From contig NZ_JAUXNK010000015.1 of the NCBI RefSeq assembly GCF_030682845.1, forward strand, positions 1 to 33,068: DNA of 33,068 nt, written 5' to 3'. A model generated the notes under the pieces. It had not been told where the DNA came from. It made no database searches and was given only the letters and a program-made list of their open reading frames with translations. This stretch comes from Methanolobus sp. (GTDB lineage: Archaea > Halobacteriota > Methanosarcinia > Methanosarcinales > Methanosarcinaceae). The position numbers and the translations under genes are program-made. Positions 14,386 through 24,381 of the stretch are shown in pieces. Every line of letters starts with the position of its first letter. Position 1 is the first letter of the stretch.

Positions 14386-14499
14386 ACTGTCATTGTTCCT
14401 CCTCAGAATGAGCCGATGTGTAGTGAGACAGGGCCAGAGGCCCCATCTCTTCAGCTGGTAGTACACATTAATTTGCGTCTCAAATTACGCTGTCATTGC

Positions 14500-14847
14500 C
14501 TCCCTGGTACATTCTTCGGTATATTCAGTAAGGATGCAGATCTTATAGCCAGCGGGGAAACAGCTTTGAGGATCATGGTCCTTGCAACTCATATAATTGG
14601 AATAAACGTCATCAGTACGACAGTATTCCAGGCTATCGGGAAAGCAAGGTCGTCCTTTATTCTTTCAATGTGCCGCCAGATACTTTTCCTCATACCACTG
14701 GTACTTCTTCTGTCGCGTTATTTTGATATTTCCGGTGTATGGCTGGCGTTCCCCTTGTCCGACCTGATGGCGGGTCTTTTGAACATGTTCCTCATAGTTA
14801 AGGAGTACCGTTATTTCCAGGGCAGGCCGGACCCTGTACCTTCCTGA
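14500..14847 (+). pseudogene. Truncated MATE family exporter (C-terminal remnant)
   Basis: About 115 residues match the last transmembrane part of a MATE multidrug/Na+ antiporter: FFGIFSKDADLIASGETALRIM, then VISTTVFQAIGKARSSFILSMCRQ and a final pair of hydrophobic helices. A whole MATE protein is about 450 residues. Upstream sequence in this frame is not MATE-like, and no N-terminal half exists in the 330 bp back to the previous gene, so this is a 5'-deleted remnant. The frame itself stays open. Confidence 0.72.
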
Positions 14848-14872
14848 CCTGTCCTGTGATAATTCACGACAA

Positions 14873-14882
14873 TTATTTATAT
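14873..14882 (+). promoter_or_regulatory. Probable TATA box of the Rieske redox operon
   Basis: TTATTTATAT lies 36 bp before the first Rieske ATG. Transcription would start near 14900-14905, leaving a very short leader that holds the strong Shine-Dalgarno GGGAGG at 14905-14910. Confidence 0.45.
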
Positions 14883-14917
14883 TTTTGAATCCCTGCTTAC
14901 CTATGGGAGGTTAACAT

Positions 14918-15232
14918 ATGCCGGAGAAATCCTGGTTCTTTGCACTAAAAGAAAAAGATTTGACTGATGAGAGCATAGAGTTTGTCAGGGTAAAGGATAC
15001 TCCCATAATTATCTTTAGGAAAAATGGGCAAATCCACTCTCTCTATGGTAAGTGCGGCCATATGGGCTGCCGACTTTCCAAGGGCACTTTCATTGATGAA
15101 CATATCCTTAAATGCGGCTGCCATGGATGGGAATATGATACAAGGACAGGTAAGCACCTCGGGGATAAAGAAGCAACCCTTGAGACCTACGAGAACAAAG
15201 TAGAGGGAGGAGAAGTGCTCGTTCTGCTTTAA
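14918..15232 (+). CDS. Small Rieske-type [2Fe-2S] protein, first tandem copy
   Basis: A 104-residue single-domain Rieske protein without a membrane anchor or oxygenase domain. The cluster ligands are Cys46-x-His48 and Cys66-x-x-His69, within KCGHMGCRLSKG and KCGCHGWEYD. Such proteins act as soluble electron carriers. This is the first gene of a five-gene set of redox proteins. A second, related Rieske gene follows after 33 bp. Its direct partner cannot be named. Confidence 0.86.
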   Translation: MPEKSWFFALKEKDLTDESIEFVRVKDTPIIIFRKNGQIHSLYGKCGHMGCRLSKGTFIDEHILKCGCHGWEYDTRTGKHLGDKEATLETYENKVEGGEVLVLL

Positions 15233-15265
15233 CGTGACAAGATATCCTGAAGGAGGTATGAGGTT

Positions 15266-15577
15266 TTGGTTCCATGGTTCTTTGCAATAAACGAAAGTGA
15301 GCTGGATGAAGGCGATAAGAAACCATTGCTGATGGAGGGTAATAAGATACTGCTGCTCAGGCAGGAAGGTGGTTTCTATGCAATATCCAACAAATGTCCG
15401 CATATGGAATGCCCACTTTCAAAAGGTGATATGGAAGGATATGTTATCAAGTGCCCGTGTCATGACTGGCGGTTCGATATAAGGAGTGGTGAGTTTCTCG
15501 ATGCAAAAGAGATAACTGTCCCTGCTTATGAGACAAAGGTCGACGATGGCAAAGTTTACGTTAATCTGGAAAGGTGA
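15266..15577 (+). CDS. Small Rieske-type [2Fe-2S] protein, second tandem copy
   Basis: A 103-residue Rieske protein with ligands Cys44-x-His46 and Cys63-x-x-His66 (KCPHMECPLSKG, KCPCHDWRFD). It is a diverged paralogue of the preceding gene: both begin with WFFA shortly after the start and share the LSKG and TxxxYExKVxxGxVxV endings. The start is taken as TTG 15266 because GGAGG at 15252-15256 is correctly spaced; the ATG at 15258 is in another frame. Confidence 0.84.
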   Translation: MVPWFFAINESELDEGDKKPLLMEGNKILLLRQEGGFYAISNKCPHMECPLSKGDMEGYVIKCPCHDWRFDIRSGEFLDAKEITVPAYETKVDDGKVYVNLER

Positions 15578-15583
15578 GGTTCA

Positions 15584-15832
15584 GTGAAGAAAGTGGTAAT
15601 GTACACTCTCAGCACCTGTCCCTGGTGTATGAGGGCCAAGACGTTCTTCAGGGAAAAAAACATTCTCTTTGAGTACATCGATTACGATAAGGCTGACGAA
15701 GCGACTCGTAAGTCTATCCTGGAGGACTGCATGTCTCATGGAGAAAAGATGTCCTTCCCCTTCGTCAAAATTGGGGAGGACGTGGTCGTAGGATACGATC
15801 CTAAGAAATATTCCAGCCTGCTGGACAAGTGA
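15584..15832 (+). CDS. Glutaredoxin-like protein
   Basis: An 82-residue thioredoxin-fold protein with the dithiol site Cys12-Pro-Trp-Cys15 near the N-terminus, SFPFVKIGEDVVVGYDP carrying the cis-Pro loop, and no extra domain. It starts at a GTG six bases after the second Rieske stop; GGTGAGGT is just upstream. With the ferredoxin-thioredoxin-reductase-type gene next door, it may be the disulfide that this reductase reduces. Confidence 0.85.
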   Translation: MKKVVMYTLSTCPWCMRAKTFFREKNILFEYIDYDKADEATRKSILEDCMSHGEKMSFPFVKIGEDVVVGYDPKKYSSLLDK

Positions 15833-15842
15833 GGTAATATTC

Positions 15843-16190
15843 ATGGATACGAACAAGCGTATGGAGCAGTTCAGGACCATGTTCCAGAGAGTCATAGACC
15901 CACTTGGCTATAAGTTCAGTCCCGACGAAGAGATCGTGGATTTCCTGCTCGAGCAGGAGGTCATGCTGGAAAAGGAGAAAGGCAGTCCTTTCTGTCCCTG
16001 CCAGGGGCTGACAGGTGAGCGTGAGCATGATATGAAACTGGTATGCCCTTGCATACCTTTCCACAGAGAGCACTACGATGCAATGAGGCGTTGCTGGTGC
16101 GGGCTTTACGTCCATAAGGATGTGGATGATCCGGATGAACTGGTCCAGATATCGAAAAAGGAATTTGAAGCATCAAGAAATAAAGGGTGA
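15843..16190 (+). CDS. Ferredoxin-thioredoxin reductase-type catalytic subunit
   Basis: A 115-residue FTR-beta-type protein. All six conserved cysteines are present as CPC (51, 53), CPC (68, 70) and CWC (84, 86). In this family they hold a [4Fe-4S] cluster beside a redox-active disulfide, so one-electron donors can reduce a disulfide partner. The variable FTR subunit of plants and cyanobacteria is absent, as in methanogen ferredoxin:disulfide reductases. The gene lies 10 bp after the glutaredoxin gene. Confidence 0.88.
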   Translation: MDTNKRMEQFRTMFQRVIDPLGYKFSPDEEIVDFLLEQEVMLEKEKGSPFCPCQGLTGEREHDMKLVCPCIPFHREHYDAMRRCWCGLYVHKDVDDPDELVQISKKEFEASRNKG

Positions 16191-16237
16191 AATTGATATT
16201 CTAAAGTAAAAGGGATAAGGTTACAGGAGTGAGGTCA

Positions 16238-16819
16238 ATGACGGGGAAAGATAATGAGATCATACTAAATATAAAATCGCGCAGGAGTGTTCGGGATTAT
16301 CTCGACAGGCCGGTGAGTGAAGAGTCAGTAAAGAAGATAATCGATGCAGGGATATATGCTCCTACCGGCTTTGGTTCGGAGCCCTGGTTCTTTGTTGTGG
16401 TGCAGAACAAGGAAATGATGAAAAGGATGTCCGATTACTGCAAGCCGAAATTACTTGCACAGCTTAAAGATATGCCAAACGACAATGTGGCCGAGTTCAA
16501 GAAAATGCTGGGCCGGGAAGATTTCGACATATTCTATGGGGCTCCTCTGCTTGTTATAGTTCTTGGCAGTAATGCCGGTTTCACAACTGACTATGATTGT
16601 GCCATGTGTGCCCAGAACATGATGCTTGCAGCAACATCAATGGGCATTGGCAGTTGCTGGGTTGGAACAGCCTGTTTTTTCCAGGACAACGTGGAGTTCA
16701 TGAGCGAACTTGGGATACCCTATGATTACCGGGTTATCGCACCCATTGTGTTCGGATATGAGGGTGAGGTTCTGGAAAGGCCCCCGAGGCAGGAGCCCCG
16801 GGTAGTCTGGATACACTGA
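16238..16819 (+). CDS. Nitroreductase family flavoprotein
   Basis: A 193-residue nitroreductase-fold protein. The FMN phosphate site SRRSVRDYLDRPV is at the N-terminus, APTGFGSEPWFFVVVQN follows, and MGIGSCWVGTA is the second conserved flavin-proximal stretch. Family members reduce diverse small acceptors with FMN; the substrate is unknown. The ATG at 16238 is chosen because GGAGTGAGGT directly precedes it; a GTG at 16229 in the same frame lies inside that Shine-Dalgarno. It is the last gene of the redox set and converges on nifN with 40 bp between. Confidence 0.85.
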   Translation: MTGKDNEIILNIKSRRSVRDYLDRPVSEESVKKIIDAGIYAPTGFGSEPWFFVVVQNKEMMKRMSDYCKPKLLAQLKDMPNDNVAEFKKMLGREDFDIFYGAPLLVIVLGSNAGFTTDYDCAMCAQNMMLAATSMGIGSCWVGTACFFQDNVEFMSELGIPYDYRVIAPIVFGYEGEVLERPPRQEPRVVWIH

Positions 16820-21192: not shown

Positions 21193-22455
21193 TTATTCTG
21201 CCTTCCAGGGTGTCTTCATCAGACTCCAGGTCGGATTGTTCACTGCCATGTCAGCATCTCTTGCAAAGTTCAGCACTCCTGAGAATCCTGTATACCTCCC
21301 ACTGTAATCATAGGAGTGTATCTGCCTTGAGGGAATTCCCATCTTCTGTGCCATGTACTTGTCCTTTATACCCGAGCAGAACAGGTCCGGCTTTAGCTCC
21401 TTAATGAGGAACTCCGTTTCATAATGGTTAAGGTCGTCTACAACGACTGTCCCGTCTTTCATTTCGGGGAACATTCCCTCATAGTCCATCAGGCCAAGCT
21501 GTTCCTTGAGTTCCTTCATACGCTCTTCACTGATGGCAGGCTTGTACCCTTCCTCCATTTCATAGTGCAGATCCTCAAGTATTGAACTGGAAGCCTTCTC
21601 CTTCATGCCTTCAAGGACCTTCCTGCCTTCGTAGTCATCCCGGTGCGCGAACTGATATCCGGCAACAATCACCTTCATGCCGAGATCCTCAAAGAGATTC
21701 TGGTAGTGGTGTGACCTGGAACCGCCGGAGTATATGAATACCTTCTTGCCTGCCAGCTTCCTTCTGTACTTCTCAAGTTCAGGCTGGATCTTTGCCATTT
21801 CTTCTTCTATTACTTCCTCTGTCTTCCTGGTCAGTTCAGGATCATCGAAAAACTGAGCCATCTTTCGAAGTGACTTCTTTGTGCCCTCTACTCCAACATA
21901 GTTGACCTTAAGCCAGGGCACGCCGTACCTCTCTTCCATCATGCGATTTGTATAGTTCACAGACCTGTGGCACAGCAGGATACTCAGCTTTGCCCTGTGA
22001 GCCTTTGCAAGACTATGGAAAGAACCGTCGCCTGTAAAGCTTGACACTATGCGGTACCCTATCTTCTCAAATAGTGGCGTTATCTCCCAGAGGTCTCCTC
22101 CGATGTTATACTCTCCAAAGATGTTGATATCGAATGGAGTCGGATCCTCAAGTTCCTCCGTACCTATCACATGTTCCATGAGCACGTTGCTTGCAATGTG
22201 ATGCCCGGCTGACTGGCTGACACCCCTGTAACCCTCACAGCGAAGTGCCATGACCTTGATGCCATGTTCCTTCTGTGCCTCAAGAGCTACTGCTTCTATA
22301 TCATCTCCGATCAGTCCCACAGGGCATGTAGCGCAGATAGAAATCGCGCCAGGCTTGAAGATCCTGACCACATCATCAATGGCAGTTTTGAGCTTCTTCT
22401 CACCACCGAACACGATATCAGTTTCTATGATATCAGTTGAGAAACTGTACTGCAG
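21193..22455 (-). pseudogene. nifD: nifD, 3' part (C-terminal 418 residues), split by an insertion sequence
   Basis: This segment encodes the MoFe protein alpha chain from YSFSTDIIETDIVFGGEKKL to the stop. Key residues remain: the P-cluster Cys in ICATCPVGLIGDD, the FeMo-cofactor Cys in LSILLCHRSVNY, and the cofactor His in RQIHSYDYSGRY. An insert of about 50 residues before GTVVVDDLNHYETE is typical of clostridial and methanogen NifD. Codons join in frame to the 5' part if the element 22456-24060 and one CTGCAG copy are removed. As it stands the frame is entered from inside the element, where an ATG at 22524 could start a chimeric C-terminal fragment. Confidence 0.92.
22450..22455. repeat. 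Target site duplication, left copy
   Basis: CTGCAG, identical to 24061-24066, directly flanks the left end of the element. The duplicated nifD codons encode Leu-Gln. Confidence 0.9.
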
Positions 22456-24060
22456 CCCAACATTGACAGTCAAAAGTAATAATAGTGTTCTTAGTCTTGA
22501 TGTATTCGACAAAAAATGCAACAAAAACTAAGAACATATGACATTATTCCTAACGAGAATATATGCTTTCCTGTCGGAACTATTGTGGCAGTAAACCAAC
22601 TTTATGATATCCTTGACTTTCCTACTGTTTTCGGTAAACACAAAAAGAATGGTATTGATATCAACAACCTGCTGAAGGCTCTTGTAAGCTACAAGCTTAC
22701 AGATAATTTCAGCATAAGTAAAGCTCATGACTGGATAAAACGTGATGAGGTACTTGATATCTTCGATCTCGAAGATTTCAGTGAAAGGACACTTTACAGG
22801 GTTCTTGAAACCCTGGGAAATAATCGTGAAACGATTATTTCCGATATTCAGGACAGACTGTTTGACAGGTATGACTTCGAACATACCAACATCAATATGG
22901 ATTGGACGAGTATCGTTCTGTATGGGGATAAATCTCCTCTCGGAAAGTATGGATATAGCAGAGATCACAGGCCTGACAAAAAACAGATAACTTTGGGTAT
23001 AACTGAACTTGCAGATCCCATAAACGTGCCTATAGGCATCACCGTAGAACAGGGAAATATGCATGATCAGAAACACTTCAGGAAAACGTATCAACAAGTA
23101 AACAAAAGGCTCAAGCAAGAATCACTTGTTGTTTTCGATAAAGGAGCTCACAGCATAGAGAACACTGCCATGATAATGGCAGATGATATGCAGTATCTGA
23201 CTGCAAGGAAGCTCAATAAGAGTGACGACAAGATAATAGCTAATTTCGGGGACTTTTCTCTTGAAACCATTGACCCTGATGATGGCATATATGGAATGAA
23301 GATAGTAAAACCAAGTAGTGTCAACTATTTTTATTTCTCTGAAAAACTCCAGATAGAGCAACTTGAATCAAGAGCAAGGAAGATAATGAGGCAGATAGAG
23401 GAAGCAAAAGAGATACAGGAATCTATTGATAAGAATAAGAAGCTGCCTAAAAAGTTCAGGATCAATAATGCCCTTGTTGATGTTGTTTATTCATTGCAGA
23501 CAAAGCTGGTGAATCTTGATGAAGAAGAAGCTATCAAACTTCTCGAAGAACGTCTGATCACAGGCAGAGAGGGATTTTTCTGCCTGAGATCAAGCAAGAA
23601 TTTGACATTGAAACAAGCTCTTCAAACATACAGGAAAAAGGATTCTATCGAGAAGATCATCAATTCCCTGAAGAATGAGATAGAGATCAAACCGCTAAGA
23701 GTGTGGTCGGATGCTAGTGTTTATGGAGCTATTATTATCGGGTTCATTGCACAATTGTTCATATCGCTGTTGCGATATGAGTTCAATGAACTCAAACATA
23801 AGTCCACAAAATTCATTAAAAATAGCTTATTGAATTTGACAGTTACCGTCGATTTCCTGAAAGAAGGGGCCAAAAAGTACATTTATGCCAACTTTGATGC
23901 TATAAATACACTGATCTTAAGGCAAAAAAGGGCAAAATCGTAGAATTTTGCATGAAATTGTTTAAACTGTCAAATAGGTTTTCCTGACAAAAAAACGAAA
24001 AAATTGGGCTGAAAGAGAAGACATTCTCTTCATCAAGGAGTGAAAACTGTCAAACTTGGG
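22456..24060 (+). mobile_element. Complete IS1634/IS4-type insertion sequence inside nifD
   Basis: A 1605-bp element bounded by inverted repeats: CCCAACATTGACAGT at the left and CCCAAGTTTGACAGT at the right end read inward. They match at 13 of 15 positions. It is flanked by the 6-bp duplication CTGCAG. It holds one transposase gene on the plus strand, opposite to nifD. An internal AAACTGTCAAA at 23964-23974 repeats the subterminal sequence at 24044-24054. Ends, duplication and gene are all intact, so it looks recently inserted and possibly active. The family name is from the transposase; no name can be given to the individual element. Confidence 0.93.
22516..23943 (+). CDS. DDE transposase of the IS1634/IS4 type
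   Basis: A 475-residue transposase. Catalytic candidates are the Asp in INMDWTSIVLYGD, the Asp in LVVFDKGAHSIENTA, and the Glu in ITGREGFFCLRSS. The last is followed by the late basic stretch usual in IS4-like enzymes. The TLGITELADPINVPIGITVEQGNMHDQKHF block is typical of this group in Methanosarcina genomes. Full length, no frameshift. It ends with TAG. No clear Shine-Dalgarno precedes the ATG. Confidence 0.93.
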   Translation: MQQKLRTYDIIPNENICFPVGTIVAVNQLYDILDFPTVFGKHKKNGIDINNLLKALVSYKLTDNFSISKAHDWIKRDEVLDIFDLEDFSERTLYRVLETLGNNRETIISDIQDRLFDRYDFEHTNINMDWTSIVLYGDKSPLGKYGYSRDHRPDKKQITLGITELADPINVPIGITVEQGNMHDQKHFRKTYQQVNKRLKQESLVVFDKGAHSIENTAMIMADDMQYLTARKLNKSDDKIIANFGDFSLETIDPDDGIYGMKIVKPSSVNYFYFSEKLQIEQLESRARKIMRQIEEAKEIQESIDKNKKLPKKFRINNALVDVVYSLQTKLVNLDEEEAIKLLEERLITGREGFFCLRSSKNLTLKQALQTYRKKDSIEKIINSLKNEIEIKPLRVWSDASVYGAIIIGFIAQLFISLLRYEFNELKHKSTKFIKNSLLNLTVTVDFLKEGAKKYIYANFDAINTLILRQKRAKS

Positions 24061-24066
24061 CTGCAG
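24061..24066. repeat. Target site duplication, right copy
   Basis: CTGCAG, identical to 22450-22455, directly flanks the right end of the element. Confidence 0.9.
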
Positions 24067-24381
24067 GTAATTATCTCCGCCATTCTCTGCCTTTCCCATG
24101 CTACGGCGGGTTCCCCACGTGTAATATCCACACCCTATAGGCCCGTGGACTATGTGCACCATGTCCTTGATAGGTCCCATGACCACGCCCTTGCCGCCTG
24201 CAAAAGCGCAGCCGCGGTTTGTCATGATGCCGGGTACCACCTTGGTGTCGGCTTCAATATGCTGGTCTGTGGAACAGTTCCTTACAACCACATGTTTTCT
24301 CCTGTCCCTGGCAACCTTCTCGGGATACCTCTTCATCATTTCATCAACGATGTCCTGTGTGGCTTCTACTTCAGAGCTCAT
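24061..24381 (-). pseudogene. nifD: nifD, 5' part (N-terminal 107 residues), split by an insertion sequence
   Basis: This segment encodes NifD residues 1-107, ending NGGDNYLQ. It contains the first two P-cluster cysteines, Cys58 in NRGCAFAGG and Cys84 in HGPIGCGYYTWGTRR. Reading continues 32 codons into the element before a stop, giving a 139-residue fusion without function. The ATG overlaps the nifI2 stop by 4 bp. Together with the 3' part it would make a 525-residue NifD, a normal length for methanogens. Confidence 0.93.

Follow-up and report, generated by a model that had tools for sequence, protein, structure and literature searches.

The conserved unit at this locus is a trio of genes encoding a Rieske protein, a glutaredoxin-like protein (Grx) and a disulfide reductase resembling the catalytic subunit of ferredoxin:thioredoxin reductase (FTR). 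A first Rieske gene and a nitroreductase gene, which complete a run of five in this Methanolobus genome, are family-level additions. By analogy with known systems, the trio can be read as a Grx/FTR disulfide-reducing unit in which the Rieske protein would take the place of the rubredoxin of ferredoxin:disulfide reductase (FDR) or of the variable subunit of plant FTR (probability about 0.6). The Rieske-Grx-FTR unit looks like an undescribed version of the known methanogen disulfide-reducing system.

The window is the whole stretch of DNA that was analysed, a 33-kb contig (G000:C27) from a genome of 2.87 Mb. The gene run and its putative upstream signal are as follows:

14871..14884, + strand: TATA-like A/T stretch, about 35-45 bases 5' of the first start codon, recognised by sequence inspection only; possibly an archaeal promoter for the gene run
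14918..15232, + strand: Rieske protein 1 (Rsk1), 104 aa, CGHMGC...CGCH; an addition at the level of the Methanosarcinaceae
15266..15577, + strand: Rieske protein 2 (type A), 103 aa, CPHMEC...CPCHDW; core member 1 of the conserved trio
15584..15832, + strand: glutaredoxin-like protein (Grx), 82 aa, CPWC; core member 2
15843..16190, + strand: FTR catalytic-subunit-like disulfide reductase (FTR-beta), 115 aa, CPC-14-CPC-13-CWC; core member 3
16229..16819, + strand: nitroreductase-family flavoprotein, 196 aa; outside the wider core

As the preliminary description had stated, the five genes are tightly packed and co-oriented; they are also intact. All of them lie on the + strand, the intergenic gaps along the run are 33, 6, 10 and 38 bases, and every cofactor motif is whole, namely the Rieske ligands CGH...CGCH and CPH...CPCH, CPWC in Grx, and CPC/CPC/CWC in the FTR-like protein. 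Rieske protein 1 has the four cluster ligands as well as a bc1-type extra Cys pair. In Pfam searches, both Rieske proteins matched PF00355 (63.8 bits for the first and 73.3 bits for the second, with a cut-off of 20.3), Grx with its CPxC active site matched PF00462 (42.7 bits, cut-off 22.9), the FTR-like protein with its three CxC motifs matched PF02943 (FeThRed_B; 94.5 bits, cut-off 22), and the nitroreductase matched PF00881 above the curated cut-off (113.9 bits). The Pfam search detected no second domain in the 115 residues of the FTR-like protein, and a C-terminal rubredoxin-like domain is absent from it. The variable subunit of FTR (PF02941) had no match in the whole window genome at E<=0.1, with a Synechococcus control being matched. 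The earlier remark that the FTR-beta protein lacks its variable subunit is therefore accurate, but because PF02941 is missing genome-wide, this lack does not mark out the locus and was discarded as a sign of it.

Within the Methanosarcinaceae, an orthologue of the FTR-like protein (64-100% identity) occurs in 38 of 112 genomes, the next matches being about 30-38% identical. The order Rieske 2, Grx, FTR was found at all 40 loci examined in this family; upstream of the trio lies Rieske 1, often together with a third Rieske gene. In the window genome the trio occurs once more, on contig C98, where it has neither a nitroreductase nor nif genes. In the converse search of the 112 genomes, all best matches to the Rieske protein (at least 56%) and to Grx (at least 69%) were located at these cassettes, including one (G055 C33) that no longer has FTR. 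More distant Rieske and Grx genes are present elsewhere; examples are a solo Rieske gene on C33, a solo Grx gene in G040 and those Grx genes that some Methanosarcina carry.

Beyond this family, a profile scan across about 85,000 species returned 65 loci, with FTR recognised in 64 of them; the scan requires exact peptide patterns, and the counts are consequently too low. A type A Rieske gene and Grx precede FTR at 57 of the 64 FTR loci if counted strictly and at 58 with L059, and since L083 and L109 are cut off by contig ends, the Rieske-Grx-FTR order is present at 58 of 62 informative loci. The archaeal hosts are Methanosarcinaceae, Methanoperedens and Bathyarchaeota. The bacterial hosts, which represent at least eight phyla, are found in Bacillota, Lithacetigenota, Actinomycetota, Ignavibacteriota, Bacteroidota, Spirochaetota, Fibrobacterota, Omnitrophota, Chloroflexota and Myxococcota/Deltaproteobacteria; most hosts in the scan are MAGs, so individual taxon assignments may be wrong. 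Directly after FTR, a second and different Rieske gene (type B) occurs at 30 of 42 loci outside the Methanosarcinaceae. When the distance matrices of the three proteins are compared, they correlate with r values of 0.70-0.77, and of 0.62-0.72 for the loci outside the Methanosarcinaceae, as expected for genes inherited together. The gene order is thus not unique to the window genome but widespread across two domains of life, and its occurrence at 40 of 40 Methanosarcinaceae loci and at most loci in other phyla excludes chance.

In the neighbour comparison across the scanned loci, no further partner gene recurs past close relatives. Methanoperedens-type loci have in common a gene with a GSDH domain and one for a small membrane protein. 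None of the loci examined showed a natural fusion of Rieske with FTR or with Grx, and apparent long ORFs considered as Rieske fusions proved to be start-choice artefacts. The possibility of a mobile or viral cassette was also considered, and the lack of any relative among viral contigs argues against it.

Individual copies show several peculiarities. In the sister genome G055, the FTR gene has disappeared from its place between Grx and nitroreductase in the cassette on C33 (L136:2813-4707), and a second cassette (C6) keeps it. The type A Rieske protein at L055:5135-5443, which is the same gene as in L008, no longer has the first Cys ligand (NKSPHM) and therefore probably carries no normal cluster. 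The second-copy glutaredoxins at L035:7532-7930 and L006:1855-2418 begin with a piece that resembles the N-terminal ~45 residues of FTR; it was probably left behind when Grx-FTR was duplicated in tandem and a deletion fused the copies. The window genome also encodes two further short FTR-beta paralogues (L050:4721-4999 and L051:4664-4948), one of them near hybrid-cluster-protein-like and formylmethanofuran-dehydrogenase-like genes and the other beside a flavodiiron-type protein.

The motif CPC-14-CPC-13-CWC is retained in all 61 full-length FTR copies of the 85,000-species set and in all 40 Methanosarcinaceae copies, and the mean column identity of FTR across the domains of life is 69%. Between its two Cys, the third motif has Trp here, Tyr in FDR and His in plant FTR. 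In all 57 of 57 intact copies, type A Rieske proteins contain both ligand pairs and two further Cys residues where bc1 proteins have their disulfide, and their second ligand motif almost always runs into CHDW; among the type B proteins encoded downstream of FTR, the extra Cys are present in 0 of 30. The active site of Grx is CPWC in 42 of 42 Methanosarcinaceae copies and mostly CPWC, with some CFHC or CYHC, across the loci of the 85,000-species scan. AlphaFold models of Rieske 2 and FTR are confident (pLDDT 96 and 92, respectively). The former matches Rieske ferredoxins (TM 0.91 to 2QPZ), and the latter matches the Grx/FDR fusion of Desulfotalea psychrophila (7PWE, the best match) and the FDR of M. 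acetivorans (4TPU). Assignment of Rieske A to the high-potential bc1 type fails: the Cys pair is present, but the positions of the potential-raising Ser and Tyr are occupied by W and F/Y (CHDWRF), which suggests a moderate or low potential. Assignment to the dioxygenase Rieske ferredoxins fails as well, as no oxygenase or ferredoxin reductase recurs as a neighbour at the scanned loci.

The proposed chain is modelled on FDR and methanoredoxin (MRX). The FTR-like protein would hold a [4Fe-4S] cluster beside a redox-active Cys pair; by analogy with plant FTR, the cluster may be bound by C51, C68, C70 and C84, with C53-C86 as the active disulfide. Electrons would be exchanged in pairs with the CPWC Grx and singly with the Rieske protein. 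A partnership of Grx and FTR is known from the natural fusion 7PWE and from the adjacent MRX and FDR genes of M. acetivorans. The Rieske protein would occupy the position of the variable subunit and ferredoxin in chloroplast FTR, or of the fused rubredoxin in M. acetivorans FDR. The most likely flow would lead from a low-potential donor (ferredoxin, or an F420H2- or NADPH-linked donor) through Rieske, FTR and Grx to target disulfides, for example in NrdH of the class III ribonucleotide reductase. Its middle section, from Rieske by way of FTR to Grx, is the direction that the preliminary description had put forward, and it is plausible. The window genome has an NrdH-NrdD-NrdG operon (L138) and no FDR, which makes NrdH a reasonable candidate target. 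The cassette Grx was itself considered as NrdH and rejected, since the genome has its own NrdH as a separate gene beside nrdD.

The direction of this flow can be questioned on energetic grounds. Soluble Rieske potentials are about -150 to +200 mV, and those of the usual FTR and glutaredoxin disulfides about -200 to -320 mV. Because the former lie at or above the latter, transfer from Rieske to disulfide may be uphill, and a reverse or indirect role is possible. In the reverse case, Grx and FTR would oxidise dithiols and pass single electrons to a Rieske protein of higher potential, acting as a dithiol oxidase or as an overflow for excess thiol reductant, with the type B Rieske protein or the nitroreductase as the exit. 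Such a direction accords with the usually higher potential of Rieske clusters, with the retention in type A of the Cys pair that forms a stabilising disulfide in bc1 proteins, and with the two Rieske kinds flanking Grx-FTR at 30 of 42 non-family loci, as if two steps were needed. It is nevertheless unlikely: the replaced Ser and Tyr positions predict a lower potential, and the characterised FTR, FDR and methanoredoxin are all reductases (PMC7278568, PMC6262447).

Another explanation treats the Rieske protein as the client of the two enzymes. Grx and FTR would keep its extra Cys pair reduced, or would repair or mature its cluster, so that a thiol switch would operate on a carrier used elsewhere. 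Disulfide-reducing enzymes are indeed encoded beside Rieske A, and the extra pair is constant in type A across domains and missing from type B. However, the equivalent disulfide of bc1 Rieske proteins has a structural role, with no switching known, and a general disulfide reductase would need no dedicated client gene across so many phyla. This explanation is quite doubtful.

With respect to the extent of the unit, the preliminary description had proposed a private redox cassette of five genes. A dedicated Rieske/Grx/FTR-beta unit is borne out by conserved order and co-occurrence, but it comprises three genes rather than five. The nitroreductase is next to FTR at 30 of 40 Methanosarcinaceae loci and missing from 10, and it was not found as an adjacent gene at loci outside the family; a five-gene core is therefore rejected, and within the Methanosarcinaceae the nitroreductase is at most an accessory. 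A different nitroreductase lies directly after FDR in the g5 genus and 1-2.5 kb from FDR in some Methanosarcina, a recurrence that would suit one obligatory pathway of all five genes with the nitroreductase as flavin entry or exit, as envisaged in the preliminary description. These FDR-linked nitroreductases are only 26-28% identical to the window protein, however, and in view of the many loci without the gene such a pathway is very improbable.

Genes for nif, MATE and glutamine synthetase proteins neighbour the cassette in the window, and the nif cluster follows it on the opposite strand. A role in nitrogen fixation or metabolism, to which the proximity of nifEN and of the genes for glutamine synthetase and glutamate synthase and the convergent, adjacent nifN in the window and at many Methanolobus and Methanomethylovorans loci could point, is hardly credible and was discarded: most other loci have no nif neighbour, the genome's own C98 copy and the Methanohalobium and Methanosalsum copies showed no nif gene beside them, and nif does not recur as a neighbour in Methanoperedens or bacterial loci.

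The nifD gene of the window is split (21193-24381, - strand) into a C-terminal part at 21193-22524 and an N-terminal part at 23962-24381. The insert contains a DDE transposase gene (PF01609; 22516-23943, + strand) and is surrounded by weak inverted repeats (22439-22470/24046-24077). As the two parts of nifD flank the transposase gene, the nitrogenase of this assembly appears to be disrupted. A MATE-family ORF (14416-14847) immediately upstream of the cassette is similar to MATE transporters in their C-terminal end only and may consequently be a truncated remnant; a MATE-family ORF holds the same place in relatives.

In these methanogens and other strict anaerobes, the occurrence of soluble Rieske proteins is explained neither by an oxygenase nor by a bc complex. 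Their conserved association with a disulfide reductase offers a testable job for such proteins, and the trio, consisting of three small soluble proteins, is readily accessible to experiment. If the reading of the trio as a Rieske-coupled disulfide-reducing unit is true, a further FTR class would join the plant type with its variable subunit and the Methanosarcina type with its fused rubredoxin, and the reduction of glutaredoxin or NrdH in FDR-less methanogens such as Methanolobus would be explained. It is rather unlikely that the analogy extends as far as a Rieske-dependent glutaredoxin reductase forming a third donor class of the FTR superfamily in archaea and bacteria, with the invariant extra Cys pair of Rieske A joining or gating the thiol relay, so that one small protein would be both Fe-S carrier and thiol switch.

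The preliminary description knew of no pathway with this set of parts. In open full-text papers (subscription papers being outside the search), no link between Rieske, FTR and glutaredoxin was found, only plant and cyanobacterial reviews. To that extent the claim stands, but a close counterpart, the pair of MRX and FDR, is described (PMC7278568, PMC6491703). Wei et al. 2015 (cited by title in PMC6262447) report that FDR delivers electrons to the class III ribonucleotide reductase of M. barkeri.

Several other known systems share parts with the trio. FtrB double-selenoproteins and UXX-star glutaredoxin-like proteins (NCBIfam NF041072, NF041212) belong to the same superfamilies and give weak matches, whereas the window proteins are all-Cys and score far below the curated cut-offs. 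The soluble Rieske ferredoxins of dioxygenases (2QPZ, 5BOK, 1FQT) are similar in fold, size and soluble one-domain form, but they are without the extra Cys pair, and the window locus has no nearby oxygenase or ferredoxin reductase. Chloroplast and cyanobacterial ferredoxin:thioredoxin reductase (1DJ7) shares the catalytic-subunit fold and the three CxC motifs; it differs in its variable subunit (missing from the window genome), its thioredoxin partner and a CHC motif instead of CWC. The Grx/FDR fusion of D. psychrophila combines Grx and FTR-beta domains in one unit and matches both window Grx and FTR in sequence, but it is a single fused chain that no Rieske protein is known to accompany.

The comparison with Methanosarcina acetivorans is the closest. 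Genome G074, judged by its proteins identical to 5CAX (MRX) and 4TPU (FDR), is M. acetivorans or a strain of the same, and its MRX and FDR genes are adjacent (locus L120) with Grx first. As in the trio, a Grx gene directly precedes an FTR-beta-type gene on the same strand and in the same order, there is no variable subunit domain, and the hosts are archaea of the same family. By domain search, FDR consists of FTR-beta and a rubredoxin-like domain (PF21349) at the C-terminus; the window FTR has no such domain and has Rieske genes upstream. The FTR parts are ~29-32% identical, with CYC in FDR and CWC here as the third motif, and the active site is CVWC in MRX and CPWC in the window Grx. Kumar et al. 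in 2015 reportedly thought that the rubredoxin centre relays electrons from ferredoxin to the active-site cluster, replacing the variable subunit. Among the 112 Methanosarcinaceae genomes, FDR orthologues occur in 30 (three genera) and the trio in 38 (six genera) with an overlap of 0, and about 44 have neither; the hypergeometric P of 3e-7 for this non-overlap is not corrected for descent and concerns few genera. At two Methanoperedens-type loci (L085:7214-7705 and L116:7211-7708), an FDR-like (FTR-rubredoxin) gene follows the trio in one run, so the two systems are not exclusive everywhere. By this analogy, the trio of Methanolobus and its relatives is best read as the counterpart of the methanoredoxin/FDR pair in Methanosarcina.
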